Positions 36,244 through 55,838 of a DNA stretch of 64,000 nucleotides are shown one piece after another. Where the stretch lies: contig NZ_VFOS01000004.1 of NCBI RefSeq assembly GCF_006716265.1, positions 62,001 to 126,000 of the forward strand, read 5' to 3'. The notes beneath the pieces are model-generated. The model had not been told where the DNA came from and did no database searches. It worked only from the letters and a program-made list of their open reading frames with translations. The position numbers and the translations under genes are program-made. Position 1 is the stretch's first letter. Every line of letters begins with the position of its first letter. This DNA is from Rarobacter faecitabidus (GTDB taxonomy: Bacteria; Actinomycetota; Actinomycetes; Actinomycetales; Cellulomonadaceae).

Positions 36244-36290
36244 GCGTCAGCATCCCCTCCCGCACCTCACACCCTCCCAGCTATGAAATA

Positions 36291-36310
36291 ATCTGCGTAT
36301 GTACGCAGAT
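36291..36310. promoter_or_regulatory. ArsR operator overlapping the start codon
   Basis: ATCTGCGTA and TACGCAGAT form a perfect 9+9 bp palindrome around TG; the regulator's ATG (36299) lies inside it. The same core precedes the second ArsR gene at 53112-53131. Confidence 0.8.
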
Positions 36311-37911: not shown

Positions 37912-37925
37912 TCCATCATGGGATC

Positions 37926-38666: not shown

Positions 38667-38668
38667 AC

Positions 38669-38860: not shown

Positions 38861-38923
38861 GCCACGGACGGCCGTCCGCGTCGGTTGACGGGGACGGCTG
38901 TTCGTGGCGCACGCAGGCTTGGC

Positions 38924-41190: not shown

Positions 41191-41421
41191 TTACTCGCCG
41201 TACTCCCGCTCGCGGTCAAGCCGGTCCTGCTCACGCAGGTGCGCGAACGGGTCCACCACGCTGTGGATCCCGTGCTGCGGGCAGACCCACATGATCCTGA
41301 TGCCCATGCCGTCAGCCCCGCTCGGCTCAGGGATGCAATCACCGCCGCACTCCGAGCAGGTGCGGTAGCCCTCGTCCGGGTCGTGGGAGGCCCCTTCCGG
41401 GCCGATGCTGAGCCTTCCCAC
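41191..41421 (-). CDS. Small zinc-ribbon protein coupled to the recombinase
   Basis: 76 residues; its GTG start uses the last base of the recombinase stop (TAGTG). CSECGGDC plus CPQH gives a four-ligand zinc-ribbon pattern; the tail REQDRLDREREYGE is charged. Possibly an accessory DNA-binding factor for the recombinase. Confidence 0.6.
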   Translation of the reverse strand: MGRLSIGPEGASHDPDEGYRTCSECGGDCIPEPSGADGMGIRIMWVCPQHGIHSVVDPFAHLREQDRLDREREYGE

Positions 41422-42008
41422 TACGAGGCCGCCTCCGCGTATCGGCCAGTCCCGCTCAGGGCCGTGTAGAGCGTCTGGCGACTGACGCCTAGCTCGCGCG
41501 CCAATACAGCCTTGGGGACGCCACTATCAACCTTCTGACGGGCGTCCTCGATCTGCTCGGCCGTGAGCTTCACACTCTTGTCGTACTTACCGGCAGCCTT
41601 GGCCAGCGCGATGCCTTCCAACTGGCGCTCCCGGATCACCGACCGCTCCAGCTCAGCAACCGCTCCCAGGATCGTCAGCATGAACGCCCCTTGCGGCGTA
41701 TCAGTGTTCAGCGCCGGGTTGTCCAGGAACTCCACCGCGACGCCACGCCCCTTCAACTCCTCCACCATGGCCAGCAGGTCGCGCGTCGACCGAGCCAGTC
41801 GGTCCGGCGACGTCACCCGAAGGGTGTCGCCCTCCCGGACGTAGCGCAGCATCTCCTGAAGCTGCTCACGATCTGTGCTCTTGCCGCTGACCTTGTCCGA
41901 GAACACCCGGTCGCAGCCATCCAGCGCTTTGAGCTGCCGCCCGAGGTTCTGATCCGCCGCGCTGACCCGCGCGTAGCCGATCACCTGGCACTTGCCCTGT
42001 CCAGTCAT
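41421..42008 (-). CDS. Serine recombinase (Tn3-type resolvase/invertase)
   Basis: 195 residues behind GGAGG. Catalytic Ser in VIGYARVSAADQNLGRQLKA; SPDRLARSTRDLLAMVEEL and GAVAELERSVIRERQLEGIA are the resolvase core; C-terminal HTH is VPKAVLARELGVSRQTLYTA. A palindromic res-like site lies just upstream at 42029-42066. Belongs to the older island, not to the transposon inserted next to it. Confidence 0.93.
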   Translation of the reverse strand: MTGQGKCQVIGYARVSAADQNLGRQLKALDGCDRVFSDKVSGKSTDREQLQEMLRYVREGDTLRVTSPDRLARSTRDLLAMVEELKGRGVAVEFLDNPALNTDTPQGAFMLTILGAVAELERSVIRERQLEGIALAKAAGKYDKSVKLTAEQIEDARQKVDSGVPKAVLARELGVSRQTLYTALSGTGRYAEAAS

Positions 42009-42028: not shown

Positions 42029-42066
42029 GTGTCCAACAAGGTCTAATTCTACCTTTCATTGGACAC
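42029..42066. promoter_or_regulatory. res-like recombination site of the 41421-42008 recombinase
   Basis: GTGTCCAA and TTGGACAC are inverted 22 bases apart, with inner AGGT/ACCT also inverted: the size and symmetry of a resolvase subsite, directly upstream of the recombinase gene. The transposon begins 18 bp to the right. Confidence 0.65.
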
Positions 42067-42077: not shown

Positions 42078-42083
42078 GAAAAG
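42078..42083 (+). repeat. Target-site duplication, left copy (GAAAAG)
   Basis: GAAAAG immediately left of the transposon end TGTGG; the identical six bases lie immediately right of the other end at 53369-53374. Confidence 0.8.
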
Positions 42084-42121
42084 TGTGGAGTTTGGCGCTT
42101 TTTGGCGGTGTTCTGTGATCG
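42084..42121 (+). repeat. Left terminal inverted repeat of the transposon
   Basis: Begins TGTGGAGTTTGGCGC and ends 10 bp before the tniB stop. Pairs with 53331-53368 (32 of 38 identical, six mismatches). Confidence 0.88.
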
Positions 42122-42131
42122 TTTCGTGTCG

Positions 42132-42941
42132 CTAGTTGCCGATGACGAGGATGCTGGCGGCGGCCTCGATGACGTCGTCCGTGATGGTGTCCAGTTGGTT
42201 GATCTTGAGGACCCGGTTGATCTGAGGGAATAGTCGTTCGAGGAGGCGGAAGTTGCCCCGTGTGATGCGTTCGATGGCGGCGATGGCTTGCGCGTCGGTG
42301 AAGTCGTCAGGGTCGAGAGTCCTGCCGAGTCGCTTCCAATGGCGGTCGAGGACGAAGAGGAGTTCTTCGCGTCCGAGGGCCCGGTATTGGTGTGAGAACC
42401 CGAGCCGACTGTAGAGCTGGGGGTAGTGGCGGAATCGTTCGTCGATGCCCGGCATCCCGATCAGTATCATCGCGAGGCTGGTTCGGTCGTGCCTGTCACG
42501 AAGCAGCTCGAGTGCGGTCGGGGTGAGTCGTTCGGCTTCGTCGATGATGAGCAGCTCAACGTGGCTGGTCATATTTCCCATCTTTCGTGGGGTCGGTTCG
42601 TTGGCGTGGATGTGCTCGTCGGCGCAGATGCCGACTTTGATCTGCCAGTAGTCGATGTCATGCATGAGGTCTTTGGGCCGACAGAGGACTTCGGGCGTGT
42701 AAAAGACGGTTCGGGATCGGTTCGCGAGGGCGTAGAACTTTGCATCGTGGTCCCCGCGGGGTCCCCATTCGGTGATGTAGGGCTCGAGGGCGTCCCAGTT
42801 TGCGTAGCGGCGAGCGGAGTTGGTTTTCCCGACGCCCGCGGCGCCGTGGCAAATCCCGATCGTCTTCTCCTTGCGGACAGCGTTGGCGAACTCGGTGAAT
42901 CGCCGGTGTTCCTTGGTCACGATGAATGCTTGGTTCCTCAC
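42132..42941 (-). CDS. tniB: Transposition ATPase, TniB/TnsC-like
   Basis: 269 residues; GTG start overlaps the tniA stop. AAA+ features: Walker A GAAGVGKT at ~33-40, Walker B LLIIDEAERL, sensor-1 region SLAMILIGMPG, and the C-terminal lid NFRLLERLFPQINRVL. Partner ATPase that selects target DNA and activates the DDE transposase. Its stop lies 10 bp inside the left terminal repeat. Confidence 0.88.
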   Translation of the reverse strand: MRNQAFIVTKEHRRFTEFANAVRKEKTIGICHGAAGVGKTNSARRYANWDALEPYITEWGPRGDHDAKFYALANRSRTVFYTPEVLCRPKDLMHDIDYWQIKVGICADEHIHANEPTPRKMGNMTSHVELLIIDEAERLTPTALELLRDRHDRTSLAMILIGMPGIDERFRHYPQLYSRLGFSHQYRALGREELLFVLDRHWKRLGRTLDPDDFTDAQAIAAIERITRGNFRLLERLFPQINRVLKINQLDTITDDVIEAAASILVIGN

Positions 42942-44323
42942 TCGTCCTCTTCGTAGGTGCGCAGCTTCGGCCGCCGCTTCGTCGGTTCGGGGATGCGAGG
43001 TTCCTCGCGAGTGGCAACGGTCGGGATGCGGTCGTTGATGGCTCGCCGCAGCTGCTTGCGGCGGGCGCGGCGGGCCGTTTCGATGTCGCGAAGGCTGAGG
43101 CGCAGGTTGGGGTGGGCTTCATCGATAGCGGTGCAGATGAACGTGTCCCGGTCATAGACGCGGATCTCGGAAAGGTCGCGGGGGTCGTACCGGATCGTGA
43201 TGGTGTGGCCGACGAACGGGGCCAGGGTTGGGGCGAGGTAGCGCTGGCCTTGGAAGTGGATGCCGTCGCGTTGCACAACCCGGTTCTTCGGAACAGTAAG
43301 GAGCAGACCGTCGAGTTCTTGAAGGCTGTCCGGCATCCGCGGCAACCACCCGTCCGCGACCCAGGCGTCACGCGGCGAGATCCCCAGCTCACTATGAGAC
43401 CGGTCGTTGTAGGTACCGATGAATCCGCCGATCGCACGGTCGAGTCCGGCAAGGTCGAGGACCGGAGTTGGCGTCCGGCTGCCGGGTCCGAGGTGGCCGG
43501 GGAGGGTGGCCAGAAGTTCGGTGTTGATGGTGCCGAAGAACCGCTCGATCTTGCCGCGCCCCTGTGGTCGGCCGACGGTCGAGTGGATGATCCTGATGTG
43601 CAGAGCGATCGAAGTTCGCTCAAGGTGGTGGCTGATGAAGTCGGAGCCGTGGTCGACGTGCAGGATGTCGGGAATGCCGCACATCGCCCACGCCGGGTCG
43701 GTCTTTCGCCAGATCGCCTGCCGGAGGGCGAGGGCGGTGTTGAGAGCTGATGGGGCGCCGGTGAAGACCATGTATCCGCAGATCGCACGGGAGTAGTCGT
43801 CCATCACGGTCGTCAGCCACGGTCGGTCAGGTTTCCCGTCAGCGCCGAGAACGAGGATGTCGAGTTCAGTGTGGTCGGACTGCCAGGTCTGGTTCGGGTG
43901 TTCCGCGCGGCGCCGAAAGACGAGCTCGTGCTTGTCTCGGTACGAGACCGGCCCCTCCAGCGCCAAAGTGACAAGAGCCGGATCGAGTGCCCGGACGATT
44001 TGCCGCACAGTTGCATAGCTCGGAGCCCGCAGCTCACGCGCCCGCGCATCAGCGACGGCGAGACGATGCAGCGTGGCGAGACTAGGGCGCGGCCGACTGA
44101 GTGCCAGTTGTTCGATGAACGCGACCGTCTCTGCTGAGGTTCGTCGGACACCTTTGTCTATACGCGCATGAGGGTCGAGGGATGCGACGCCGCCCGCCCG
44201 GTAGAGCTGGTTCCAACGCTGCAGAGTCCGAGCGGAAATCCCCGTCTCCCGAGCGAGAACCGCGAGCGGGATCTGGTCTTCGACATGAAGCCGAAGAACA
44301 CGCCACCGCTCGGCCGCATCCAC
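42938..44323 (-). CDS. tniA: DDE transposase, TniA/Mu type
   Basis: 461 residues from GTG 44323 (AGGTGA upstream). N-terminal HTH (VLARETGISARTLQRWNQLY), integrase core with D150 in TWQSDHTELD, D224 in LHVDHGSDF and E260 in GRGKIERFF, spacing typical of D,D-35-E; then the Mu-type C-terminal beta-barrel (QRYLAPTLAPFVGHTITIRY) and basic tail. All catalytic residues are intact, so the transposon may be active. Confidence 0.92.
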   Translation of the reverse strand: MDAAERWRVLRLHVEDQIPLAVLARETGISARTLQRWNQLYRAGGVASLDPHARIDKGVRRTSAETVAFIEQLALSRPRPSLATLHRLAVADARARELRAPSYATVRQIVRALDPALVTLALEGPVSYRDKHELVFRRRAEHPNQTWQSDHTELDILVLGADGKPDRPWLTTVMDDYSRAICGYMVFTGAPSALNTALALRQAIWRKTDPAWAMCGIPDILHVDHGSDFISHHLERTSIALHIRIIHSTVGRPQGRGKIERFFGTINTELLATLPGHLGPGSRTPTPVLDLAGLDRAIGGFIGTYNDRSHSELGISPRDAWVADGWLPRMPDSLQELDGLLLTVPKNRVVQRDGIHFQGQRYLAPTLAPFVGHTITIRYDPRDLSEIRVYDRDTFICTAIDEAHPNLRLSLRDIETARRARRKQLRRAINDRIPTVATREEPRIPEPTKRRPKLRTYEEDE

Positions 44324-44330
44324 AAGTCAC

Positions 44331-44927
44331 CTACACCTTGGTGCTCTCGCGGGCCGCAAGGGCCTTCTGATGCCGGTACAAAGTGGCTCGACTCCATCCG
44401 ACGAGTTTCGCCGCATCCTCCGCCGTGCGGCCCTTCGCCCGGGCCTCAGTTACGAGCTTGAGTTTGTCGGCTACGACCGTGGGATCGGACAAGGGCCGAC
44501 CAAACTTGGTGCCGCCGTTTCGGGCAGCTGTGATCCCTGCGTTCACCCGCTCGGTGATCAGTTCGCGTTCGTATTCGGCCAGGGTGGCGAGCATGTTCAG
44601 CATCAGCCGGCCCGACGTCGTCGACGGGTCGATCCCATCCGAGATGCTCTTCACCTGTATGTCACGCTCCCGGAGCAGCTTCACCGTGTTCAGCACATCG
44701 ATCAGGGACCGGCCGAGTCGATCGACCCGCCACACCACGACGGTGTCACCGGGCTGGGCGTGCTCGAGGAGCTTTTTCATTCCGGGGCGGGAGATCGCGG
44801 TCCGGCTGCCAGAGGTGACGTCGGTGAAAATGTCCCGTTCCTGCACACCTGACTTCACCAGAGCGTCAACCTGCAACTTCGCGTCTTGGCTTCTGGTGCT
44901 GACCCGTGTGTACCCGAGATGTCTCAC
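44331..44927 (-). CDS. tniR: Transposon resolvase (serine recombinase, TniR/Bin-like)
   Basis: 198 residues from GTG 44927; a TTG at 44945 is an alternative. Catalytic Ser in HLGYTRVSTRSQDAKLQVDA; VWRVDRLGRSLIDVLNTVKL and TLAEYERELITERVNAGITA are classic resolvase motifs; C-terminal HTH DAAKLVGWSRATLYRHQKAL. Resolves cointegrates at the res region to its right. Confidence 0.92.
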   Translation of the reverse strand: MRHLGYTRVSTRSQDAKLQVDALVKSGVQERDIFTDVTSGSRTAISRPGMKKLLEHAQPGDTVVVWRVDRLGRSLIDVLNTVKLLRERDIQVKSISDGIDPSTTSGRLMLNMLATLAEYERELITERVNAGITAARNGGTKFGRPLSDPTVVADKLKLVTEARAKGRTAEDAAKLVGWSRATLYRHQKALAARESTKV

Positions 44928-45054
44928 ACCGCCATTCTGCCTCAATAACTGCTAGCAGAGGCAGAGCAAAGACACTTTGCGGTAAGACATGTTTCCGAGA
45001 CAGATTGGGTGCTGGGAATCCGCGACTTCTTCTCGCGGCTCGGGGGCCGTTTGG

Positions 45055-45088
45055 GGTGTCTCGAAAAGCTTTTGGTTTTCGAGACACC
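45055..45088. promoter_or_regulatory. Inverted repeat in the transposon res region
   Basis: GGTGTCTCGAAAA and TTTTCGAGACACC are perfect 13-bp arms around 8 bases. Related CGAGACA/GGAGACA words recur at about 44996 and 45151. The 44,928-45,269 gap has no gene and most likely holds resolvase subsites and the tniR/tniAB promoter. Confidence 0.6.
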
Positions 45089-45269
45089 TTTAGACAGAGC
45101 TCTTCCCTCGCGGAGGAGGGTGCTTTTTCGAGTCGCTACGCCTTGGGCGTGGAGACACCGCTGGTACTTACGTCAGCATCACCGACGAGTATCGCTGATC
45201 TTTATTGCGCGCGGGCAATCTAGACTCGCGCCTGCCAGATTGTAGCGGTATGGGCGTTCGCACGGCCCA

Positions 45270-45809
45270 TCAGTCTGTGTCTCCGTCCCCGGACAGTGCT
45301 GGCGCGCCCATGTCTTCGGTCCATACTGCCGTGGCGCCGCTGTGACCGATGAGGATGGCTTGCACGGTGGTTCCTGTCGACACCACGAGAGCCAGCAGAA
45401 TCAGCATGATTGGTACCCACCGCGAACCAGGACGCGCCGCGACCGGCAATTCCGACTCTCTGGACGCTGCGATTCGTGCGCGCTTCTCGCGGATGTTCCA
45501 CCACAGCAGCGCGCCCGCTACGACGACGAGACCGATGACCCAGGGTAAGAGTCCGTCGGCCAGGGTGGCGTGAGTTTCGATGAGATCGTTCTCACCGACA
45601 CGGGCCTCGAGTCGCTCGCCCGATTGTGTTGAGAGGGGAACGAGAACGAGCGCGACCAGTGAGGCGCCGAGCGGCAGATATCCCGCCCACCGACGGCATC
45701 GGGGCCAGACTGCCGTCAAGACGACGAGGACCGCCGCCAGCGGAACGATCACCTCTGTCGCGTGCACGATGAACGGATGCAGGGGGAGCCCAAAGAATGT
45801 GTCGAACAT
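45270..45809 (-). CDS. DUF2231 membrane protein
   Basis: 179 residues, four predicted membrane helices. N-terminal GLPLHPFIVHATEVIVPLAA is the DUF2231 signature (paired His near the membrane face), and a late IGHSGATAVW repeats the His motif. His-bearing helices in this family suggest haem or metal handling; function unproven. Start 45809 is 17 bp from the proposed response-regulator site, so the mRNA is probably nearly leaderless. Confidence 0.82.
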   Translation of the reverse strand: MFDTFFGLPLHPFIVHATEVIVPLAAVLVVLTAVWPRCRRWAGYLPLGASLVALVLVPLSTQSGERLEARVGENDLIETHATLADGLLPWVIGLVVVAGALLWWNIREKRARIAASRESELPVAARPGSRWVPIMLILLALVVSTGTTVQAILIGHSGATAVWTEDMGAPALSGDGDTD

Positions 45810-45826
45810 GGTTCAAGGTTAGGCAG

Positions 45827-45843
45827 GAATTCTTCCAGGATTC
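45827..45843 (-). promoter_or_regulatory. Direct-repeat operator before DUF2231 gene
   Basis: Read leftward: GAATCC-TGGAA-GAATTC, an 11-bp-spaced direct repeat, followed five bases later by TAACCT. It matches the site at 46721-46737 at 16 of 17 positions, in the same orientation relative to the gene. Confidence 0.65.
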
Positions 45844-45912
45844 TTTGAAGCGGCCATGAGCCGCGGAAGGGGCTTATTTGTCACGCCCCGTTCGCACCAC
45901 ATGGCCGAAAGG

Positions 45913-46647
45913 TCAGACGACGCCGGATGCTCCTAGGAGCACCCCCACCCCGTAGGTCGCCGCGAGTGCCAGCGCTCCGCCGATGACGACTCGCAGCGTG
46001 GCCCGCAGCCGTGAGCTGCCGCCGATCGTTGCCGACAGCGTGCCGGTGACCGCGAGAGCCATGAGAACGGCGACGAAGGTAACGGGGATGCGCCAGTCCG
46101 CTGGGGGAAGCAGGATGGCGAGCATTGGCAGGATTGCCCCGATGGTGAAAGCCGCCGCCGACGACGCCGCCGCATGCCAGGGGCTCACGACATCGTCTTG
46201 ATCGATGTTGAGTTCGATCGAGAGGTGCGCCGCTAGGGCGTCGTGCTCGGTGAGCTCAATGGCCACCTGGGTAGCGGTGCTCTCGCTCAGGCCCTTGGCT
46301 CGGTACAGGGCGGTGAGTTCGTCGAGCTCCTCGGCGGGCATGTCGCGCAGTTCGGCGCGCTCTTTCGCGATGAGGGCCTTCTCGCTGTCGCTCTGGCTGC
46401 TGACTGACACATACTCCCCGAGCGCCATCGAGATCGCGCCGCCGACCAGGCCCGCCACGCCCGCGGTGAGGATGGGACCAGTCGAGCTCGTGGCTCCGGC
46501 GACGCCCACGACGATCGCCGCCACCGAGACGATGCCGTCGTTGGCCCCCAGTACGCCGGCGCGCAGCCAGTTGAGGCGCTGCGCGATGCCTCCCCGGTGG
46601 GGTTCGTTGGCGTGTAGCGGGGGTGCGGTGTATCCATCGGTCGACAT
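45913..46647 (-). CDS. VIT1/CCC1-family iron/manganese transporter
   Basis: 244 residues from MSTDGYTAPPLHANEPHRGG. Membrane helix 1 carries the family motif LRAGVLGANDGIVSVAAIVV, followed by GGAISMALGEYVSVSSQSDS; a cytoplasmic helical segment (LTALYRAKGLSESTATQVAI) links to a three-helix C-terminal bundle. Family members move Fe2+/Mn2+ out of the cytosol. Divergent from the flavin operon, sharing its 139-bp promoter region. Confidence 0.92.
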   Translation of the reverse strand: MSTDGYTAPPLHANEPHRGGIAQRLNWLRAGVLGANDGIVSVAAIVVGVAGATSSTGPILTAGVAGLVGGAISMALGEYVSVSSQSDSEKALIAKERAELRDMPAEELDELTALYRAKGLSESTATQVAIELTEHDALAAHLSIELNIDQDDVVSPWHAAASSAAAFTIGAILPMLAILLPPADWRIPVTFVAVLMALAVTGTLSATIGGSSRLRATLRVVIGGALALAATYGVGVLLGASGVV

Positions 46648-46720
46648 GCGCTCATTCAAGCACCGATGTCCCGGCACTTCAACGTTGGTGAGGCTAAGCG
46701 ACCCGGGGAATTTCGGCTAA

Positions 46721-46737
46721 GAATTCTGGAAGAATTC
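46721..46737 (+). promoter_or_regulatory. Direct-repeat operator before the flavin electron-transfer operon
   Basis: GAATTCTGGAAGAATTC: two GAATTC words 11 bp apart, with a weaker GAATTT 13 bp further upstream (46708). The spacing suits an OmpR-type dimer. Located 50 bp before the operon's ATG, and also in the VIT1 promoter region. Confidence 0.65.
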
Positions 46738-46786
46738 GGGACGATTGTAGGGAGGGTAGAAGACACTCACCCGAATCGAGAACACG

Positions 46787-48211
46787 ATGACTCTCAGAAC
46801 TGCACCCACCGTCCCTGTGCGGACCCGCCGCATGGTCGACCCGGTCGACCGTACCCGGCGCATCCGGGGCCGACGTCGGAGGCGCACGGCCGACGCGATG
46901 ATCGCCCTCGTCTGGGCATCGGTCGCCGCCGCCATGACCTTGTGGCTCGCCTACGGCGGTCTGAACACCGTCAGCGGCCTCGCTACCGCACTGACCGCCG
47001 CGGGCATCGTGACCGGCCTGGTCGGCACTGACCTCATCCTGGTGATGCTCGTGCTCGCCGCTCGCATCCCGGCGGTCGACCGGGTGGTCGGGCAGGACAC
47101 GGCGATGGCGTTCCATCGGCAGCTCGGTAAGCCCGCGCTGTATCTGATCCTTGCCCACGGTGCGCTGCTCACCGTCGGCTACGCGATGGCCGACGGGTCG
47201 AACGTCGTCACCGAGACCATCAGCCTGTTCCAGGGCCCAGATATGGCGCTCGCCTACCTCGGGCTGGGCCTGCTCATCGCCGTCGTGGTCACCTCGGTCG
47301 TCGCGGTGCGGCGGCGCTTCGCATACGAGGCCTGGCACCTCATCCACCTGCTGAGCTACGCGGCCGTGCTCGTGGCGCTGCCGCATCAGCTGAGCGCAGG
47401 CGGTGTGCTCGCCGACGGCACCGTGCAGCGGGTCTACTGGATTGCGCTGTACGTGCTCGCCTTCGGCGCCATTGCCGTGTTCCGTTTCGCGGTGCCCGCG
47501 CTGCGCAGCGCCCGACATGGTATCCGGGTCGCTGGCGTCGAGCAGGTCGCCCCCGGGGTCGTCTCGATCCACCTCGCCGGGCGGGACCTCGACCGCCTGC
47601 AGACCGCGGGCGGGCAGTACGCGATCTGGCGGTTCTGGACCGGCGCCACCTGGTGGCATGCCCATCCGATCTCCTTCTCGGCGGTTCCTACGGCGTCGTC
47701 GGCGCGCCTGACGGTGCGCGACCTCGGCACCGGCAGTGCGGCGATCTCCCGTGTGCGCCCCGGCACCCGGGTGTCGATCGAGGGCCCCTACGGCGTGTTC
47801 ACCGAGGCGCACCGGGTGGCCCCGAAGCTGGCCGTGGTCGCGGCGGGTATCGGCATCACGCCGATCCGCTCGATGCTCGAGCACTCGACGCTACGCCCCG
47901 GCGAGGCCACCGTGCTGCTGCGCGGCAGCGATCCCTCGCAGAGCTACCTGTGGGACGAGGTCGGCGCCCTCCGCAGCATGCGCGGCAATGCGGTCTTCTC
48001 GATGATGGGCCCGCGACCGCAGGGGCTCGCCACCTGGATGTCGGTCGAGGCACTTGCCCACGGTGTCACGATCGGCACGGTTTTCCCCGATCTGCTGAAC
48101 TCCGATTTCTACGTGTGCGGGCCGCAGTCGTGGATCGATCTGGTGATCCGCGACGCCCGGGCGGCCGGTCTGCCCGAGGACCAGATCCACGTCGAGAGGT
48201 TCGACTGGTGA
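46787..48211 (+). CDS. Ferric-reductase-like transmembrane flavoprotein
   Basis: 474 residues. Basic N-terminus, then about six helices with haem-type His pairs (AFHRQLGKPALYLILAHGA and EAWHLIHLLSYAAVLVALPH). C-terminal ferredoxin-reductase half: FAD site HAHPISFSAVP, NAD(P) sites VAAGIGITPIRSML and FYVCGPQSWIDLVI. It would pass electrons from cytoplasmic NAD(P)H through haem to the outside. Overlaps the FMN-binding gene by four bases (GTGA), indicating that the latter is the acceptor. Confidence 0.9.
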   Translation: MTLRTAPTVPVRTRRMVDPVDRTRRIRGRRRRRTADAMIALVWASVAAAMTLWLAYGGLNTVSGLATALTAAGIVTGLVGTDLILVMLVLAARIPAVDRVVGQDTAMAFHRQLGKPALYLILAHGALLTVGYAMADGSNVVTETISLFQGPDMALAYLGLGLLIAVVVTSVVAVRRRFAYEAWHLIHLLSYAAVLVALPHQLSAGGVLADGTVQRVYWIALYVLAFGAIAVFRFAVPALRSARHGIRVAGVEQVAPGVVSIHLAGRDLDRLQTAGGQYAIWRFWTGATWWHAHPISFSAVPTASSARLTVRDLGTGSAAISRVRPGTRVSIEGPYGVFTEAHRVAPKLAVVAAGIGITPIRSMLEHSTLRPGEATVLLRGSDPSQSYLWDEVGALRSMRGNAVFSMMGPRPQGLATWMSVEALAHGVTIGTVFPDLLNSDFYVCGPQSWIDLVIRDARAAGLPEDQIHVERFDW

Positions 48212-48714
48212 GGGCGCGCGCACTGGCCCTCAGCATCTTGTCGTCGGTGGCCGTGCTGACCGTGGGGTGGCAGCTCGGCACGCAGGGCCAGACCCCGACT
48301 GTTCCGGATGCGACAGCCACCACCACGACCACGGCTCCCAACGGCGGGTCGATGTCCTCCGCAGCGGCCGCCCCGGCGCCCACTCCGACCGCCGCCGGCA
48401 GCAGCGCGAGTGCCACAGCCCCGGCGTCGGACAGCGCTTCGGGCACATTCACCGGTACCTCCGTGCAGACCCGCTTCGGCCCGGTGCAGGTGCAGATCAC
48501 CGTCGCGAACGGCAGCATCACCGATGTCACCGCGCTGCAGCTCACCGACAAGGATCAGCGCTCGGTGTCGATCAGCAACCGGGCCGCGCCGGTACTGCGC
48601 CAAGAGGTTCTGGCGGCGCAGTCGGCGAACGTGCAGGGCGTCTCGGGTGCCACCTACACCAGCGACGGGTACCTCAGCTCGCTCCAGTCGGCGCTCGACC
48701 AGGCCGGGCTCTGA
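48208..48714 (+). CDS. Exported FMN-binding (flavinylated) electron carrier
   Basis: 168 residues. N-terminal helix (ALALSILSSVAVLTVGWQLG) acts as signal or membrane anchor, a Ser/Ala/Pro/Thr-rich linker (~30-80) follows, then a single FMN-binding domain ending SGATYTSDGY; by family rule Thr151 takes FMN through a phosphoester bond. The enzyme that does this, ApbE, is the next gene. Probable role: extracytosolic shuttle between the reductase and a terminal acceptor. Confidence 0.92.
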   Translation: MRARALALSILSSVAVLTVGWQLGTQGQTPTVPDATATTTTTAPNGGSMSSAAAAPAPTPTAAGSSASATAPASDSASGTFTGTSVQTRFGPVQVQITVANGSITDVTALQLTDKDQRSVSISNRAAPVLRQEVLAAQSANVQGVSGATYTSDGYLSSLQSALDQAGL

Positions 48715-48716
48715 CC

Positions 48717-49475
48717 ATGGGCGTGCACGTGTTCGACACCATGGGCACCATGGTGAGTCTGCGCTTCGCCGGCTCCACCGCCCCCGCATCCGTTCTCGAC
48801 GAGGTCGAAGAGGCGTTCCGAGTCTTCGACGAGCGGTTCAGTTTGTATCGGCCCGACTCCGAGATCAGCAGGATGGCTCGCGGGGAGCTGCCGCTGACCC
48901 GGGCTAGTGCGGAGCTTCGCGAGGCCTATGCCGACGCCTTCGACTGGTCACGGAGCACCGGCGGCACCTTCACACCCCACCGCCCCGACGGCGTGATCGA
49001 CCTCTCGGGCACCGTCAAGGCCAAGGCGATGGAGGCGGCGGCGCGGGTGCTCGAGTCGTCCGGCGAAACCGACTGGATGCTCGTGGCCGGCGGGGACATC
49101 CTCACCCGGGGCGATCTCGGCGGCCCGCCGTGGCGCGCCGGCATCGTCGACCCGGACGACCGGGGCGCGCTGCTCTGCGCTGTCGAGCTCGTCGGCCGAC
49201 ACACTGCCCTGGCCACCTCGGGCACCGCCGAGCGGGGCGAGCACATCTGGCGCACCGGTGACCCCCGTTCGCCGCAACGCTACCGCCAGGTGACCGTGCT
49301 GGCCGACGACATCGTCACCGCGGATGTACTCGCCACCGCCCTCGTCGCGGGCGGGCCCGACCGCTGCCCGGAGTTGATCGACCGCTTCGACATCGAGGCG
49401 ATCACCGTCGACTACGCGGGGCACCTCACCGCGACACCAGGGCTGCAGAGCGCCCGGGGGCTCACGCCGATATGA
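48717..49475 (+). CDS. apbE: FAD:protein FMN transferase
   Basis: 252 residues starting MGVHVFDTMGTMVSLRF, two bases after the carrier's stop. ApbE motifs: FDERFSLYRPDSEISRMARG, GVIDLSGTVKAKAMEAAARV (the GxVKG-like site is SGTVKAKA), DWMLVAGGDILTRG, and ALATSGTAER. No signal peptide is visible, yet ApbE usually works outside the membrane; export or cytoplasmic action before secretion remains open. Modifies the preceding carrier. Confidence 0.93.
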   Translation: MGVHVFDTMGTMVSLRFAGSTAPASVLDEVEEAFRVFDERFSLYRPDSEISRMARGELPLTRASAELREAYADAFDWSRSTGGTFTPHRPDGVIDLSGTVKAKAMEAAARVLESSGETDWMLVAGGDILTRGDLGGPPWRAGIVDPDDRGALLCAVELVGRHTALATSGTAERGEHIWRTGDPRSPQRYRQVTVLADDIVTADVLATALVAGGPDRCPELIDRFDIEAITVDYAGHLTATPGLQSARGLTPI

Positions 49476-49510
49476 GCCTCGCCGCCCCCTGTTTCCCCTA
49501 TACTTCGAGT

Positions 49511-50179
49511 ATGTCGCAGCGCGCACGCATTCTGCTCGTCGAAGACGACGCGCGCCTGGCACAGATGCTCGAGCAGCTGCTCGCAGCCGAGGGCTACGAC
49601 ACCGTGCTCGCCCGAGACGGCCAACGTGCCCTGCACGAAGGCCTGACGCACGAGTTCGACGCCCTCGTGCTCGACCGGGGGCTGCCGGTGTTGGAGGGGC
49701 TGGACGTGCTGTCCCGTCTCCGGGGCCGCGGCATCCTGACCCCAGCCCTCGTGCTCTCGGCGCTCGGCAACCCGGCCGACCGCGTAGAGGGCCTCGATCG
49801 GGGCGCGGAGGACTACCTCGCCAAACCCTTCGACATCGACGAGCTGCTCGCCCGCATCCGCGCCCTACTCCGCCGACACAGCAGCACAGTGCCGGTGCTG
49901 GCACTAGTGAGCGGGTCGCTCGATACGGCGAGTCGTACCGTGACGACGGGAGAGGGCGAGAACGTGACCCTCTCCGAGCGCGAGTCGCAGCTGCTCGAAC
50001 GGCTCGCCCGCCGGCCGAATCAGGTGTTCGAACGGAACGGCCTGCTCGCCAGCGTTTTCCCCGATGCCGACGACCCCGGCGTGGTCGACACCTACGTGCA
50101 CTACCTGCGAAAGAAGCTCGGCCGCGACAGCGTCAAGACGGTTCGCGGTATCGGGTACCGGCTCGGACCGCTGCCGTGA
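49511..50179 (+). CDS. OmpR-family response regulator
   Basis: 222 residues. Receiver with acidic pair VEDD, phospho-acceptor Asp55 in LVLDRGLPVLEG, Thr/Ser switch region ALVLSALG and Lys in YLAKPFD. C-terminal winged HTH: TLSERESQLLERLARRPNQV and VDTYVHYLRKKLGRDSVKTV. 35 bp behind apbE, so in the same transcript; likely binds the GAATTC direct repeats in front of this operon and the DUF2231 gene. Confidence 0.93.
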   Translation: MSQRARILLVEDDARLAQMLEQLLAAEGYDTVLARDGQRALHEGLTHEFDALVLDRGLPVLEGLDVLSRLRGRGILTPALVLSALGNPADRVEGLDRGAEDYLAKPFDIDELLARIRALLRRHSSTVPVLALVSGSLDTASRTVTTGEGENVTLSERESQLLERLARRPNQVFERNGLLASVFPDADDPGVVDTYVHYLRKKLGRDSVKTVRGIGYRLGPLP

Positions 50180-51429
50180 GAGCGCTGCGCACGGGCGACG
50201 ACCTGAGAGGCGCGTCGCTGCGGCTCACCGCACAATTCACCGCCCTCCTGTTATTCATCCTGGCGATCGTCGGCACGCTCGTCTATCTGATCGTCAGCAC
50301 GAGCGTGACCGAATCGAACCAGCGGGCACTTGTCGCGGCCACCCGGCTCGACTCGCCCCAGGATGCGCCGAGCGGCACCTACCTCTCCCTGGTCGACGGG
50401 CGCACCGGCGACCAACTCATCTCCTCCGACGACCTACCCGAGGGATTGCTCGACACCACGGCCCTCCAGTCGGTAGCGGCCGGCGGCGCGGACGTGCAGG
50501 AGCAGCGCACCGTGGACGGGCGCGACTACCTCCTCCTCACCACCTCCGCCACCGGGGACCGCAGCCACGACCGATTCGTGCAGGTCGCGCTCGACCTGCA
50601 CGAGAGCTCCGAAGAACTGGGCAGGCTCGCGACCGCGCTGATCGCCGGCGGACTCGTCGCGGCCGTGCTCGCCTTCGCCACCGCCTACCTGATGGCCCGC
50701 CGCGCCATCCGCCCCCTGGCCGAGGCGCTCGCCCTACAGCGCCGCTTCGTCGCCGACGCCAGCCACGAACTCCGCACACCACTGACCCTGCTGACCACCC
50801 GGGCGCAAATTCTGAAACGCCGAGGCGGCAATGACCTCCCCGCAGACGTCACCACCTCCGTCGATGAAATCGTCACCGATACCCGGACGCTCACCGAGAT
50901 CCTCGAAGACCTCCTGATCGCCGCCGACCCGCGAACCGTGGTCGAGCCGACCCCGGTTGACCTCAGGGCTGTCGCGGACAATGCGGTCGGGCTTCTCCGT
51001 GACGACGCAGGTCGGCGCGGCATCTCCCTCGCCCGCGCGGGCGACCCGGAACCGATCATCATCCCCGGGTCGCGTGCCGCTCTGCTGCGCCTGGTGATCG
51101 CCCTGTCGACCAACGCGCTCGACCACGCCCGCACCGCGGTGACGGTCACCGTCTCGGCGTCGAACGGGAACGCAATCGTACGCGTGACGGACGACGGTCC
51201 GGGATTCTCACCCGAGGTCGCGTCCACAGCCTTCGACCGCTTCGTCAGCAGCCGGAACGTCGACAGCACCACACGCCACTACGGACTCGGATTGGCAATA
51301 GTCGCGGAAATCGTCCAGCGCCACCGCGGTACCGTCACTATCGAACAACCGACCACCGGCGCATCCGTAACGTGCATATTCCCGCTCGCACCGGCAAAGC
51401 TGCACTCCGCTATCCGGCAAGGAGAGTAA
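50176..51429 (+). CDS. Sensor histidine kinase
   Basis: 417 residues; GTG overlaps the regulator stop. Two membrane helices (LLLFILAIVGTLVYLIVSTS and LATALIAGGLVAAVLAFATA) bracket a ~115-residue outside sensor. Then DHp with DASHELRTPLTLLTTRAQIL and a HATPase domain (ALSTNALDH, VRVTDDGPGFSP, YGLGLAIVAEIVQRHRG). The signal is probably a metal or redox state, by context. Confidence 0.93.
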   Translation: MRALRTGDDLRGASLRLTAQFTALLLFILAIVGTLVYLIVSTSVTESNQRALVAATRLDSPQDAPSGTYLSLVDGRTGDQLISSDDLPEGLLDTTALQSVAAGGADVQEQRTVDGRDYLLLTTSATGDRSHDRFVQVALDLHESSEELGRLATALIAGGLVAAVLAFATAYLMARRAIRPLAEALALQRRFVADASHELRTPLTLLTTRAQILKRRGGNDLPADVTTSVDEIVTDTRTLTEILEDLLIAADPRTVVEPTPVDLRAVADNAVGLLRDDAGRRGISLARAGDPEPIIIPGSRAALLRLVIALSTNALDHARTAVTVTVSASNGNAIVRVTDDGPGFSPEVASTAFDRFVSSRNVDSTTRHYGLGLAIVAEIVQRHRGTVTIEQPTTGASVTCIFPLAPAKLHSAIRQGE

Positions 51430-51508
51430 ATCTGTTCAGACCTCCAGGACCGAAATCGGACCCGAGAACGCATACGGCCGGCATGACGGCCGACCATATT
51501 TCGCGCGG

Positions 51509-51706
51509 CTAAAGCGCAAAACCACCGGGGGCGACCGCCAGCCGACGAACCAGCCGCAGTCTGTCTGAGGCCAGGCGAAGCGCTTCAACGAGCGTGATCG
51601 ACTCGCCCTGCCGACGAGTGAGCCATGCAACAATGCCAATCAATTCAAGCCACAGCAGCGGGATGCCGTCGGCTGCAGTGAGGGCTCTCGACCAAAACGG
51701 ATCCAC
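51509..51706 (-). CDS. Small hypothetical protein downstream of CDF gene
   Basis: 65 residues from GTG 51706, which lies 8 bases past GAGGT and just after the original CDF stop (51712-51714). Contains a hydrophobic stretch GIPLLWLELIGIVAWLT and a basic helix VEALRLASDRLRLVRRLAVA. Not recognised; supported by the ribosome site and operon position. Confidence 0.5.
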   Translation of the reverse strand: MDPFWSRALTAADGIPLLWLELIGIVAWLTRRQGESITLVEALRLASDRLRLVRRLAVAPGGFAL

Positions 51707-51711
51707 AAGGC

Positions 51712-52761
51712 TTACCTCGTGACCTCTGTTGTTGTCGATATGGTCATGTCATCCAGGTTCGGGAGTGTATGCGAGATCCCGTGCCTGATGTCATGCACGA
51801 TCGTTTCGGCGGCTGAGATCGGCATATCAGCGACAGCTACCGTTGCGGCGCCCTGGAGTCGGTGGCCGACCTATCGCAGCTGCAGTGAAGGCACGGCGAG
51901 AACCCCCGGGGTGTGTTCGATCGCGTGCCGCGCTCGCTCGACGAGCTCGGGTTCGATGCCATCCATGAGGCGGCGCCCGATGCTGCGAACGGTTCCCCAG
52001 AGGAGCACGATGATGGCGGCTGAGATGAGCAGTCCGACGATGGGGTCGGCGAGCGGGAATCCGAGCATCACGCCGAATCCGCCGAGGACGACGGCGAGCG
52101 AGGTGAAGCCGTCGATGCGCGCGTGCACGCCGTCTGCGACGAGTGCGGCGGAACCGATCCTCTGGCCGACCCGGATTCGATAGATGGCGACGATTTCGTT
52201 GCCGATGAAGCCGATGAAGCCCGCGGCGATAACCCACCCTAGGTTGTGGAGAGGTTGCGGGTTGAAAAAGCGTTCGATCGATTGATAGGCGGCGACGACC
52301 GCTGACAACGCGACCACGGCGATGATGAACAGGCCTGAAAGGTCCTCCGCCCTTCCAAACCCGTAGGTGTAGTGCTTGGTCGCGGCGCGTCGGCCAAGCA
52401 CGAACGCGACCCACAACGGGACCGCGGTCAGTGCGTCAGAGAAGTTATGGATGGTATCTGCGAGCAAGGCGACCGACCCACTGATGATGACGACGACGAA
52501 CTGCAGCATCGTCGTTCCAAGCAGAACGAACAGACTTATCTTGAGCGCCCGCACGCCCTGAGTGCTGGCCTCGAGGGCATCGTCGATGGAGTCGGCGGCA
52601 TCGTGGCTATGGGGCACGAACAGGCCGTAGAGAAAACCCTTGATGCCGGTCGGATGTGAATGCCCGTGGTCGTGATCGTGGGTGTGCGCGTGGCCGGGAG
52701 ACTCGTGGTGTTCGTGCTGGGTCGGCTCGTCGTGTCCGTGGTGAGTGTGGGGCGTGCTCAC
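51712..52761 (-). pseudogene. CDF-family zinc/cation efflux gene with in-frame amber codon
   Basis: GTG 52761 overlaps the arsR stop. His-rich N-terminus (HTHDHDHGHSH), six helices with metal-site motifs LLADTIHNFSDALTAVPLWV and LVADGVHARIDGFTSLAVVL. Translation stops at TAG (51871-51873) after SLQLR, but the same frame continues VGHRLQGAATVAVADMPISA for 52 more codons to TAA 51712: the missing cytoplasmic dimer domain. In homologues the stop position is a Trp (LRWVGH), so one TGG-to-TAG change explains it. The truncated 296-residue product may keep some transport. Confidence 0.85.
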
Positions 52762-53123
52762 CTCACGGGCTCGGTTCGCGTGTGGTGGTGCCGCGGTGTT
52801 CCACCGAGGGAGTGCTCGGCCTGGAATATCGCGTCCGAGACGAGCTGACTCGCGTGTTCGTTCTCCAACCGGTAGAACACACGCGTCCCTTCTTGCCGGG
52901 TCGCTACGAATCGTCCCAGCCGCAACTTGGCGAGGTGCTGCGAGACCGCGGCAGGCGACTTGTCGACAAAGACAGCAAGGTCATTCACGGAGCGCTCCCC
53001 CTCTCGAAGAGCGAGAATCAGACGCACCCGGGTCGCATCAGCGAGCATCGAAAAGACTTCCACCGCAAGTTCGACGAACTGGCTGCCAGGGTCGCGGCCA
53101 CAAATCACACTATCTGCATGCAT
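52758..53123 (-). CDS. ArsR/SmtB-family repressor, second copy
   Basis: 121 residues from ATG 53123. Very close to the first ArsR (VELAVEVFSMLADATR, AVSQHLAKLRL, TRQEGTRVFYRL). C-terminal helix SQLVSDAIFQAEH and tail PRHHHTRTEP supply metal-ligand candidates. As in copy 1 the start codon lies within the operator and no ribosome site is seen, so the mRNA is probably leaderless. Controls the CDF gene it overlaps. Confidence 0.92.
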   Translation of the reverse strand: MHADSVICGRDPGSQFVELAVEVFSMLADATRVRLILALREGERSVNDLAVFVDKSPAAVSQHLAKLRLGRFVATRQEGTRVFYRLENEHASQLVSDAIFQAEHSLGGTPRHHHTRTEPVR

Positions 53124-53131
53124 ACGCAGAT
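53112..53131. promoter_or_regulatory. ArsR operator of the transposon-borne copy
   Basis: Read leftward: ATCTGCGTATGCATGCAGAT, with 6-bp outer arms. Its first 11 bases are identical to the operator at 36291-36310, so each repressor may bind both sites. Confidence 0.75.
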
Positions 53132-53330
53132 TATTGCACTTACCGGTCTCGAATGCGTAGGCAGGGCAATCGTTTGGGTGAGGCCGCCGCAGCGGATATG
53201 CACAACGTCGCGGCGACCTCGAACCCGACTCAACTACGGAAGTTCGGAGTGCTACTTCTGCATGCGGGCGATTAGCCATGGCCGCCTGAGGGTCGAGAAG
53301 TGTTCGGAAATCCTTGATAGCGCCAAATAG

Positions 53331-53368
53331 CGATCACAGAACGCCGCCACAAAGCGACAACAACCACA
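53331..53368 (-). repeat. Right terminal inverted repeat of the transposon
   Basis: Read leftward begins TGTGGTTGTTGTCGC and continues into GTTCTGTGATCG, matching the left end at 32 of 38 positions. It lies about 200 bp upstream of the second arsR. The 53,124-53,445 gap contains this end and the ancestral flank, and no gene. Confidence 0.88.
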
Positions 53369-53374
53369 GAAAAG
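53369..53374 (+). repeat. Target-site duplication, right copy (GAAAAG)
   Basis: Identical to 42078-42083. Beyond it, TGTTGGA and TCCGACA around 53,407-53,430 form a weak palindrome that may be a further res subsite of the flanking recombinase. Confidence 0.8.
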
Positions 53375-53445
53375 TGCGCCAGCTCCACCGTCCATCGAGT
53401 AGGCCCTGTTGGACGACTCTCTCCGACAAGTGGGGAGTGGGCGGT

Positions 53446-54405
53446 CTACCGATCGCTTTCTTCACGGCCGAGAACCTCGAACGCAGTCGCGGCGTACTTC
53501 TGCTTCGCCTCGTCCGCCGGCCCGGAATCCTCGGTGACGTTCACGCTGATCGATATGATCGCCCCTGTTCCCAAGGTCGCGGTCTGGGCCTTGGGGATGG
53601 CCCTGGCGTCGATCTTGACGATCTCGCCCCCGTCCATCTCAAGCTGCCATGCGGCGATGTCACTCACGGTGCGCAGCACGCCTCGGATGGTGGTCGGCTC
53701 CAGCTCCAGCTCCCGCGAGGAGATGACCTGGGCAATGTACATCAGCTCGGCGGCGTTCAGACGGGTCCGGAGCCGTGGTCGTCGAGGTTGTGCCCATGCG
53801 ATGTCGGGCTCGAACCCGAACTTGACGAGCGTCATGGTGAAGTCGCGCAACGTCGAGGCGACTCTCGGACCGCGCTGCGTGAGATCGCTCAGGAACGCGC
53901 TCCCGTCGACGTCGGGGCCGAGTTGTCGGCCCCCGTCGAGTAGCCCAAGCGCGTCCTTGACCGCAAGGTCAACGAGTTGGTCCTCGGTGTCTCCGAAGAG
54001 TCCAGTCTGACCGTCCGGGACGATCTCCTCTGCTGGCGGCATCGCCGGGACCATTTGGAGCACAAGACTCCCGGGCAGTGGTGATCCAGAGAGGCTCAGC
54101 CGTGTCTTCGCCACGACGTCGGCGGGGGGCTGCCCCCTCAGTGACGTGTGCCCGGTCGATGCCAGGCCAGTGGCCAGCACGAGCCGCTGGAGGTTCCGTA
54201 GCGTCTCTGCGATACCGTCGATCGACCCGGAGTGTCCCTCGATGCCGCTGCCTGTAAGCCGGAGCGAACCAGAGGATGAGTCCCGGCGCAGGCCGCCGCC
54301 CTCGGTCCGGAAGGTGTCGATGCTCATGCGCGCGAGGTCATCCGAGTCCGCCCAGTCAGACGAACCCGTCAGCCCTCTCTTGAATGCCTCCCAATCAAAT
54401 ACCAT
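53446..54405 (-). CDS. Hypothetical protein paired with nucleotidyltransferase-like gene
   Basis: Not recognised. 319 residues, no membrane segment. C-terminal part looks beta-rich (WQLEMDGGEIVKIDARAIPK, then GTGAIISISVNVTEDS). Its ATG overlaps the 3' end of the DUF6932-like gene by 11 bp, so the two proteins are co-translated and likely act together. Lies beside a restriction-modification pair, in a defence-like setting. Confidence 0.72.
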   Translation of the reverse strand: MVFDWEAFKRGLTGSSDWADSDDLARMSIDTFRTEGGGLRRDSSSGSLRLTGSGIEGHSGSIDGIAETLRNLQRLVLATGLASTGHTSLRGQPPADVVAKTRLSLSGSPLPGSLVLQMVPAMPPAEEIVPDGQTGLFGDTEDQLVDLAVKDALGLLDGGRQLGPDVDGSAFLSDLTQRGPRVASTLRDFTMTLVKFGFEPDIAWAQPRRPRLRTRLNAAELMYIAQVISSRELELEPTTIRGVLRTVSDIAAWQLEMDGGEIVKIDARAIPKAQTATLGTGAIISISVNVTEDSGPADEAKQKYAATAFEVLGREESDR

Positions 54406-54958
54406 GGAAGCCGTCCAGCTCTACCTCGAAGTAACCACGTTTCGGCAGCGCGTCAGCAAGCTGCGGAGGTGCATCCTTCGTGCCGGCGCGGCGCCGCATC
54501 CAGAAGTCGTCCCAGTAGCCTCGGGCAGTGACGTAAGCCTGATGCTCTAGGCAGGAGGAGCGATCCGCCTCGGGGTACAAATGCCATTGGCAGTATCGCG
54601 TGTCCACACGCAGGCCGGTCGCTCGTCGAACCAGGTTGTCCGCAAACAGTTGCAGAAGCTCCCTGTCGCGAGGGTCGGCAACTTGGTTGACGAGGTTGTC
54701 CTGACACCAGTAGACGAGGTCGATGTCGTCAGGGTCCAACTTGTCGGTGAGGAAGCTACCGCCCACCCAGACACTGATAACAGGGACGACCGAGCGTAGC
54801 CCCGCTGTGGCCGACCAGAAGTCCTGCCAGATCTGCTTTCGCGTGCTCGATGCCGAGAAGTAATCGGCGTCGACAAAATCACGCTTGATCTGATCAAGCG
54901 TGGCGCCGAATCTCCCCAACGGGAGTGCTCCGGTTCGCGTGTCGAGCCCAGGGAGCAC
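54395..54958 (-). CDS. DUF6932-like protein with nucleotidyltransferase-type motif
   Basis: GTG 54958 is preceded by a strong AGGAGGTG; 187 residues. Pattern LPLGRFGATLDQIKRDFVDA, RKQIWQDFWSATAGLR, then VWVGGSFLTDKLDPDDIDLV: the GS...D.D of a polymerase-beta-type nucleotidyltransferase fold. A later Cys/His-rich part (TRYCQWHLYPEADRSSCLEH) is unexplained. Similar NTase proteins occur in toxin-antitoxin and defence modules; the activity is inferred. Confidence 0.72.
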   Translation of the reverse strand: MLPGLDTRTGALPLGRFGATLDQIKRDFVDADYFSASSTRKQIWQDFWSATAGLRSVVPVISVWVGGSFLTDKLDPDDIDLVYWCQDNLVNQVADPRDRELLQLFADNLVRRATGLRVDTRYCQWHLYPEADRSSCLEHQAYVTARGYWDDFWMRRRAGTKDAPPQLADALPKRGYFEVELDGFHGI

Positions 54959-55094
54959 CGCCCACCTCCTCGTGTCCGAACCCTCTCTCCGATTATGGAC
55001 CACACCTACGACAGCTTGTGCGAGGCTGGCCGTACACGGGATCCCCTCCGGGGGCCTAGCCAACCCATGGGGCATCGTCGGCTAGGGTCGGAGC

Positions 55095-55838
55095 ATGGAC
55101 CTGACACACTCATACGACCGCGTGGTGCCCGAAGCTGTGCGCTCACGCTACGTCGTCCGTGAGACACGACAGGCTGCGGCGATCCTCCAGGCGACCAACC
55201 CCGAGCTGTTCGACGAGATGGTTTCCGCGCTGAACGAGTTCGAGATCGTGGGGAACGACCTACTCACGGCGGGCGGACAGGAGACTCAGCTCGCCCGTCG
55301 GTTCAACGACGCCTTCCGCAGCAGGGGATGGCGCGAAGCCCGCGTCGACACGGAGATTGAACTGCGACTGCGCATCATGCCTTACAAGCCCGCCGGGGAG
55401 ACCAAGGCCGAGGTCATCACTACGCCGGTGAGCAACAAGGGATACAAGGTCGACAACTTCAAGGGCAGGGTGGCGCTCGACCTGGAGTGGAATGCGAAGG
55501 ATGGCAATCTAGACCGCGACATCGGCGCGTACCGGGCGCTCTACGAGGCTGGATTCATCGATGTCGGAGTCATCGTCACGCGTACCCAGGACGAGCTGCG
55601 AGCCTTCGCGACGCAGCTACGCCTCGACGCGGGCATGCCCGAGGTCGAAGCCAAGAAGATGCTCGCCACGACGACCACGACCAACCTGGAGAAGCTCATC
55701 CCACGGCTCACGCGAGGTGATGCGGGCGGATGCCCCATTCTTGCCATCGCGATCTCCAGCAGCGCTTACGAGAACGCGCCTACACCGCGGCCCCAGAACC
55801 CTCCTGCCGCTTCGGTCGACCCCGGCCACGCAGTGTGA
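55095..55838 (+). CDS. BglII/BstYI-family type II restriction endonuclease
   Basis: 247 residues; divergent from the DUF6932-like gene. Recognised from the BglII-family block GYKVDNFKGRVALDLEWNAK followed by DGNLDRDIGAYRALYEAG and FIDVGVIVTRTQDEL, which holds the acidic metal ligands. R.BglII cuts AGATCT and BstYI cuts RGATCY, so a GATC-centred site is expected. Its 3' end overlaps the convergent methylase gene by 59 bp. Confidence 0.85.
   Translation: MDLTHSYDRVVPEAVRSRYVVRETRQAAAILQATNPELFDEMVSALNEFEIVGNDLLTAGGQETQLARRFNDAFRSRGWREARVDTEIELRLRIMPYKPAGETKAEVITTPVSNKGYKVDNFKGRVALDLEWNAKDGNLDRDIGAYRALYEAGFIDVGVIVTRTQDELRAFATQLRLDAGMPEVEAKKMLATTTTTNLEKLIPRLTRGDAGGCPILAIAISSSAYENAPTPRPQNPPAASVDPGHAV

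Follow-up and report, generated by a model that had tools for sequence, protein, structure and literature searches.

The subject of this analysis is an 11,285-bp element lying at positions 42084–53368 of a 64-kb window of Rarobacter faecitabidus DNA (the window is the whole stretch analysed, part of the 223,110-bp contig NZ_VFOS01000004.1 of a 2.80-Mb genome; coordinates of the element are window positions). We consider it very likely that this element is a complete and probably active actinobacterial transposon of the Tn552-like kind, which is targeted to res sites of resident resolvases and belongs to a family whose members exchange cargo at res site I. Each of these mechanisms has a precedent elsewhere; the novelty lies in the cargo, in the actinobacterial clade and in an exchange at res I that is clear and recurs.

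Ends and family of the element

The left end starts with TGTGG and is identical to the reverse complement of the right end at 32 of 38 and 40 of 51 positions, and the next best 38-base match to the ends on either strand of the window reached 21/38. The hexamer GAAAAG borders both ends in direct orientation (the chance of a 6-base match at a fixed place is 1/4096). The right end contains two exact copies of the 13-base repeat TCGCTnnnTGGCG. The left end has similar copies, likewise 24 bp apart, at 42095–42107 (one mismatch) and 42119–42131 (two mismatches), the second of which is overlapped by a third with one mismatch. These repeats are probably TniA-binding sites. The stop codon of tniB abuts the left terminal repeat. 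The whole element was also found at a different site, in plasmid NZ_CP133843.1 of Citricoccus sp. (99% covered, 99.5% identical, with one 59-bp gap), where both ends are as in the window and the target duplication is 9 bp long (CACGGGAAA). Since this copy ends identically at a different locus, both ends can be regarded as settled, and the boundaries, the length, the TGTGG starts, the 32/38 match and the direct GAAAAG copies given by the initial annotation proved correct. Its description of the layout also held, as the left 2.9 kb contains tniB, tniA and the resolvase gene and the remainder is cargo. The host genome has a single tniA, and none was found in the remaining genomes of the genus (four genomes including its own).

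Relatives of TniA were collected in a genome scan yielding 127 stretches, the best 80 of which were used together with six plasmid regions and the window (87 loci; individual sequences are given L numbers). In a TniA tree of 32 rows, a split with 100/100 support set three rows from TniQ-bearing plasmids apart from the remaining 29, and the 29-row side holds the window together with Staphylococcus, Enterococcus and Pseudosulfitobacter rows. The window TniA shares 40.2% identity over 463 aligned residues with a Staphylococcus TniA, labelled Tn552-type from its neighbours blaR1, blaI and a resolvase gene, versus 28.7% over 363 residues with a TniQ-associated TniA; its best relative of solved structure, by sequence, is TnsB (entries 8rdu/7svw). 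The resolvase, transposase and ATPase genes of L122 are ordered as in the window element. In the Staphylococcus Tn552-type stretch L123, the plasmid table labels the gene in the tniB position (2882–3640) “recombinase family protein”. TniQ gave no match in the element or its host genome, nor in nine of 12 tested plasmid records (six with close relatives and those of the Staphylococcus, Enterococcus and Pseudosulfitobacter rows), and the three records annotated with TniQ, serving as a positive control, all matched; 14 earlier control genomes had given no match. The lack of TniQ reported initially was thus corroborated, and, with no match in the host genome, a TniQ supplied in trans by another host locus was rejected. 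These comparisons support the original assignment of this TniA/TniB transposon as Tn552-like rather than Tn5053/Tn402. One argument used for that assignment, the 6-bp duplication, did not survive: the TniA proteins of the window and the Citricoccus copy are 99.8% identical, therefore practically one transposase yields both 6- and 9-bp duplications, and as relatives show 6–10 bp, duplication length was discarded as a family marker.

Like the window element, Tn552 of Staphylococcus (p480/p271/bin) has two transposition genes and a resolvase with no TniQ listed, and the res sites of resident resolvases are its hotspots (PMC3276174). Its duplications were reported as 6 and 10 bp, and its terminal repeat measures ~120 bp according to the same paper (PMC3276174), versus ~51 bp at 78% identity here; repeats of ~120 bp are a trait of Tn552 itself and were not treated as defining the wider Tn552-like kind. 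Unlike Tn552, the present clade lives in Actinobacteria, its closer members have mostly 9-bp duplications, and the window element carries redox/metal cargo and no beta-lactamase. A literature search on Tn552-like elements in Actinobacteria gave nothing on point among the records listed.

The presence of tniA, tniB and a resolvase gene, the res targeting, and the TGT...ACA ends are shared with the Tn5053/Tn402 family (PMC7765201, PMC11406308), in which metal cargo is also common, so the element could be thought a res-site hunter of that family that has lost TniQ. We regard this as very unlikely. The Tn5053/Tn402 family has TniQ (PMC11406308), whereas none was found for the window element, and its TniA sides with the Tn552-type sequence, apart from the three TniQ-associated ones. 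Window tniB matches AAA_22, whereas the TniQ-associated TniA proteins are annotated beside TniB-family ATPases. Tn5053-type elements produce 5-bp duplications and typically face the target resolvase in one orientation, with IRo adjacent to tnpR (PMC7765201), whereas the window duplication is 6 bp, those of its relatives, where present, are 6–10 bp, and both orientations occur (see below). The relaxase and tyrosine integrase genes in the window could instead suggest that the stretch is a mere segment of an integrative element or island, its matching ends being coincidental; this is in practice excluded by the same ends at the Citricoccus locus, and left ends are conserved across dozens of relatives and a target duplication is present.

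Exchange at the boundary of tni module and cargo

The res of the element was called by conservation and symmetry, and similarity between relatives drops off at its candidate site I (TGTCTCGAAAAGCTT/TTGGTTTTCGAGACA). The initial annotation mentioned neither this boundary nor the res-site target. Site I was found with a score above 20 in 52 of the 87 loci (two were unscored). Where tniA identity was 70% or more, 48 of 54 scored loci had it, as against four of 31 where the identity was lower. Clustering of these 52 loci at 70% identity gave one group on the tni side and 43 groups on the cargo side. The clearest contrast between the two sides was seen in L027 of Arthrobacter koreensis, which carries the cargo of the window together with the far end: its tni module is 75.9% identical to that of the window versus 99.7% for the first 3 kb of the cargo, and 766 differing alignment columns fall in element positions 1–2972 versus 14 in the 8,313 positions of 2973–11285. 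Further pairs share cargo more closely than tni modules, and their first leftward difference lies at −2 from the res I centre in L024/L086 (cargo 97.9%, tni 90.4%), at −8 in L031/L032 (2.2 kb of cargo 99.8%, tni 91.1%) and at −1 in the older pair L004/L032 (2.3 kb of cargo 88.2%, tni 78.0%). The reverse arrangement occurs in L023/L024, L025/L086 and L035/L036/L041, which have tni modules of 98.1–99.9% identity and no cargo match in 3 kb, their first difference falling between −2 and +3 relative to the centre. Other pairs, in the 90–95% range of tni-side identity, differ on both sides and provide little information on the breakpoint.

Serine recombinases act with a 2-base overlap, which predicts that the central bases of their sites are not independent. 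The partners have the central two bases in common (TT, AC or GT) in all but one of the seven comparisons, the exception being L004 (TT) versus L032 (GT). Among 46 distinct site contexts the combinations were A/non-T 5, A/T 5, non-A/non-T 1 and non-A/T 35 (Fisher p 0.001), although shared descent could also give such non-independence. A strict dinucleotide rule for the exchange was rejected because of L004/L032, which contradicts it unless this pair mutated after the exchange.

Resolvase action at site I may not be the sole way to such mosaics. Elements of one family can meet on plasmids, and the conserved 30-bp site offers some homology, so ordinary homologous recombination might have joined tni modules and cargo with no part played by the resolvase. 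An event of this kind could be represented by L082, which differs from the window at 31 positions in one patch of the DUF2231 gene (window 45510–45732, element 3427–3649) and is otherwise 99.5% identical to it; L027 agrees with the window at all but three of the 31. Even so, all seven comparisons, some of which share members, put the junction inside the same 30-bp site or no more than 2 bases from it, the clean tni-sharing pairs break at most 3 bases from the centre though the tni module offers much longer homology, and the central bases agree with the single exception named above. Homologous recombination is therefore considered improbable, and exchange by the resolvase at res site I is preferred. 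A comparable breakdown of homology between two transposons at res subsite I is known for the Tn3-family elements Tn5501, TnTsp1 and Tn4662a, for which resolvase-mediated exchange was inferred (PMC7157771). Unlike those cases, another transposase family is concerned here, the exchange takes in the far end along with the entire cargo, and it recurs in several groups of one family. For L027, plasmid matches to the left flank were seen in a resolvase gene and in copper genes, among the matches listed, and the right flank had no plasmid match. A single in-place crossover, which would explain the missing duplication, is one possible origin of this hybrid. An article by Kholodii (2001), known from reference lists, is said to bear the title “The shuffling function of resolvases”.

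Insertion upstream of resolvase genes

A resident resolvase gene begins 75 bp from the element and reads away from it, so that the insertion is upstream of the gene; the plasmid relatives of this gene reach only 67–73% identity. After rejoining the target in silico, candidate inverted repeats flank the insertion (Table 1), and this putative res contains three exact TGTYGGA motifs versus a null mean of 0.06, a number reached in 0 of 2000 shuffles. Comparison by eye with the res of the relative L099 revealed no clear upstream similarity. Res hunters mostly insert in the spacer separating box I and box II (PMC12217951).

The same preference was seen across the family. In 66 of the 87 loci a left end was recognised and at least 300 bp of flank was available (65 distinct left flanks), and 17 of these insertions, the window included, are located 30–200 bp upstream of an outside resolvase gene, where ~0.4 would be expected (distances run to where the matched domain starts, and only genes reading away from the insertion were counted). 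The expected fraction of 0.0066 derives from 775 kb of flank, in which 30 outside resolvase matches occur, and the binomial p of 1.7e-22 applies to loci that are not fully independent; the test is conservative because the background density includes the genes next to the insertions. The tni end is nearest to the resolvase gene in eight cases and the cargo end in nine. With the direction rule dropped, 18 matches within 200 bp read away (the 17 counted above plus L056, overlapping the right end) and one reads towards the insertion (L037, cut at the junction). L002, 72 bp from a resolvase gene, was excluded from the count for its short flank.

Both ends were called in 48 loci; among candidate right ends, those giving a duplication were preferred, which biased the calls towards finding one. 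Duplications of 9 bp were the most frequent (14 loci), followed by 6 bp (six), 8 bp (five), 7 bp (three) and 10 bp (one); the probability that at least six bases match by chance was estimated at ~3 in 10,000 per candidate. The targets of the 16 insertions that have a duplication and no resolvase gene within 200 bp are mixed, with no common rule seen; L028, judged by eye, is beside ParA-like genes. In L083 (Cryobacterium) two right-end-like sequences lie 2.15 kb apart with no duplication, so it is perhaps nested or recombined.

Several observations weigh against the interpretation developed here. Because the resident res subsites were chosen by eye from the window sequence itself, the motif test is post hoc; with one mismatch allowed, TGTYGGA was not significant (p 0.13), and an 8-bp inverted repeat appears in 9.7% of shuffles of this region. 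No resolvase gene stands at 30–200 bp from 49 of the 66 insertions, which means either that res is favoured without being obligatory or that orphan res sites are among the targets. Nineteen of the 48 loci with both ends called, including the hybrid L027, have no duplication. Of the checks suggested by the initial annotation, the alignment of the ends agreed with its claim, and the search for the joined empty site, which was absent from 221 genomes of the family and from the plasmid collection, gave no answer. The first leftward difference between L027 and the window (−17) sits 2 bases outside the 30-bp site, therefore this junction is only bounded. The TniQ search covered the host genome and plasmid records, as distinct from the genomes behind the other tree rows, and the function of the cargo was assigned by family only.

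Cargo, surroundings and proposed mechanism

Table 1. Features of the element and its target site in the window
Feature	Position	Strand	Basis or remark
Resident serine resolvase gene (outside element)	41421–42008	−	Target lies in its upstream region
Proximal candidate res subsite of resident resolvase	42029–42066		GTGTCCAA ... TTGGACAC, picked by eye
Left target duplication copy, GAAAAG	42078–42083		Sequence
Left terminal inverted repeat, 51 bp	42084–42134	+	40/51 versus right end
tniB, AAA+ ATPase	42132–42941	−	Pfam AAA_22; weak phmmer match to ShTnsC, 2.5e-5
tniA, DDE transposase	42938–44323	−	Pfam rve + Mu-transpos_C
tniR, element's own serine resolvase	44331–44945	−	Pfam
Candidate accessory res subsite(s)	44967–45002		Conserved AGAC/GAGACA motifs between tniR and site I
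Candidate res site I	45057–45086		tni/cargo boundary, point of cargo exchange
DUF2231 membrane protein	45270–45809	−	Pfam
Candidate response-regulator box AGAATCCTGGAAGAATTC	45827–45845	−	Before DUF2231
VIT1-family (iron/manganese-type) transporter	45913–46677	−	Pfam
Candidate response-regulator box AGAATTCTGGAAGAATTC	46719–46737	+	Divergent promoter region, before reductase/VIT pair
MsrQ-like/ferric-reductase-like membrane protein	46787–48211	+	Ferric_reduct; NAD-binding C-terminal part E 0.0005, just under cut-off
FMN-binding protein	48208–48714	+	FMN_bind; flavinylation motif SGATYT
ApbE, FAD:protein FMN transferase	48717–49475	+	Pfam
OmpR-type response regulator	49472–50179	+	Pfam
Sensor histidine kinase	50176–51429	+	Pfam
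Cation diffusion facilitator (CDF), metal efflux	51871–52761	−	Domain match
ArsR/SmtB-type regulator	52758–53279	−	Start may lie further in; Citricoccus copy annotated 366 bp
Right terminal inverted repeat	53318–53368	−	Two exact TCGCTnnnTGGCG repeats, 24 bp apart
Right target duplication copy, GAAAAG	53369–53374		Sequence
Distal candidate res subsite of resident resolvase	53405–53430		Beyond insertion, picked by eye

By the families of its genes, the cargo is an MsrQ-like/VIT1 flavinylation redox cluster with a two-component system, joined by a cation-efflux/ArsR pair. PF01794, an FMN-binding domain, ApbE and VIT1 occur together in it, and the SGATYT of the FMN-binding protein agrees with the flavinylation motif [S/T]GA[S/T]. 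Meheust et al. counted 153 MsrQ-like clusters with VIT1 and suggested some as assimilatory iron reductases, MsrQ-like clusters being widely conserved in Actinobacteria (PMC8238504). The window cluster resembles these 2021 clusters in having PF01794 with an NAD-binding part, an FMN-binding protein, ApbE and VIT1; unlike them, it is placed on a delimited transposon with a two-component system, DUF2231, CDF and ArsR genes. No earlier report of this cargo on a Tn552-like element was found in a literature coverage that lacked most subscription papers. In 396 genomes of the order, near-identical cargo was present in the own genome and in A. koreensis, and the other matches listed were far weaker, mostly to the VIT gene. 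The two candidate response-regulator boxes are nearly identical to each other, and a related box, AGAATCCTGGAAGAAAGG (four mismatches), occupies the corresponding VIT/reductase gap in L120, a Microbacterium plasmid whose redox module is ~77% identical and which has no tni gene annotated in the 20 kb examined. The homologue L102 had no good box in the stretch examined. A tRNA-Asp call (anticodon atc) at 47183–47273 on the minus strand, inside the reductase gene, was judged false.

It is quite possible, though we stop just short of favouring it, that the cargo serves metal detoxification by export of iron, manganese, zinc or cadmium and not assimilatory iron reduction or uptake. The CDF and ArsR genes are part of the same cargo, L084 and L085 hold mercury-type genes inside their ends, and L086 has fluoride-efflux genes beside tni (its right end was not found). 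The response regulator and the kinase match heavy-metal models below the cut-off, and an iron-exporter model gives a weak match to the VIT protein that falls well short of the cut-off. The assimilatory role suggested for some MsrQ-like systems with VIT1 (PMC8238504) points the other way, and the CDF/ArsR pair may be a separate passenger, because the redox module of the Microbacterium plasmid is annotated without it.

The region around the element is probably a plasmid or an integrative element. A TrwC-type relaxase gene (57937–61548) is found to the right of the transposon and a tyrosine integrase gene (35012–35944) to its left. Positions 35981–38866, which include genes for an MFS transporter and an ArsR-type regulator, contain 2.9 kb that are 95% identical to NC_022590.1, a plasmid of Brevibacterium sp. 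Ap13. At 53446–56649, a gene for a BglII-like restriction endonuclease stands next to one for an MT-A70-type methyltransferase, together with two further genes, one having DUF6932 and a PADLOC candidate match. Large genes in a row at 2824–12879 (GDSL lipase, NPCBM, CBM35, RCC1 and bacterial Ig-like repeats) probably encode surface or secreted proteins.

In the proposed mechanism, TniA and TniB, apparently without TniQ, would have inserted the element, through sensing of resolvase-bound DNA, between the subsites of the resident resolvase's res, in a region with a relaxase gene and thus probably on a mobile replicon, creating the 6-bp duplication. Transposition would probably be replicative, with the cointegrate resolved by the element's own resolvase at res, as in families of this kind. 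If two different elements met in one cell, the same resolvase could recombine them at res site I, by which one tni module would gain the cargo and the far end of the other. The transferred cargo would be a regulated redox module, in which electrons may pass from NAD(P)H through a haem membrane reductase to the ApbE-flavinylated FMN-binding protein, accompanied by the VIT1 metal transporter and the CDF/ArsR metal-efflux pair. A bolder extension, which we put forward tentatively and hold somewhat doubtful, is an interchangeable-cargo platform: the resolvase would join any res I sites with an equal central dinucleotide, serving as a compatibility code, so that diverged tni modules would draw on a common cargo pool, and TniA/TniB alone would target res without TniQ. 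Our confidence in the dinucleotide code is lowered because the central bases of L004 and L032 differ.

These natural sequence replicates show that a transposon can gain new cargo in one step, and the window/Citricoccus element and the A. koreensis hybrid form a pair suited to base-level tests of the exchange. A clade with a res preference in which no TniQ was found also makes it testable which protein senses the resolvase-bound target. Finally, a predicted iron-reductase module is placed by this element on a mobile, self-delimited unit.

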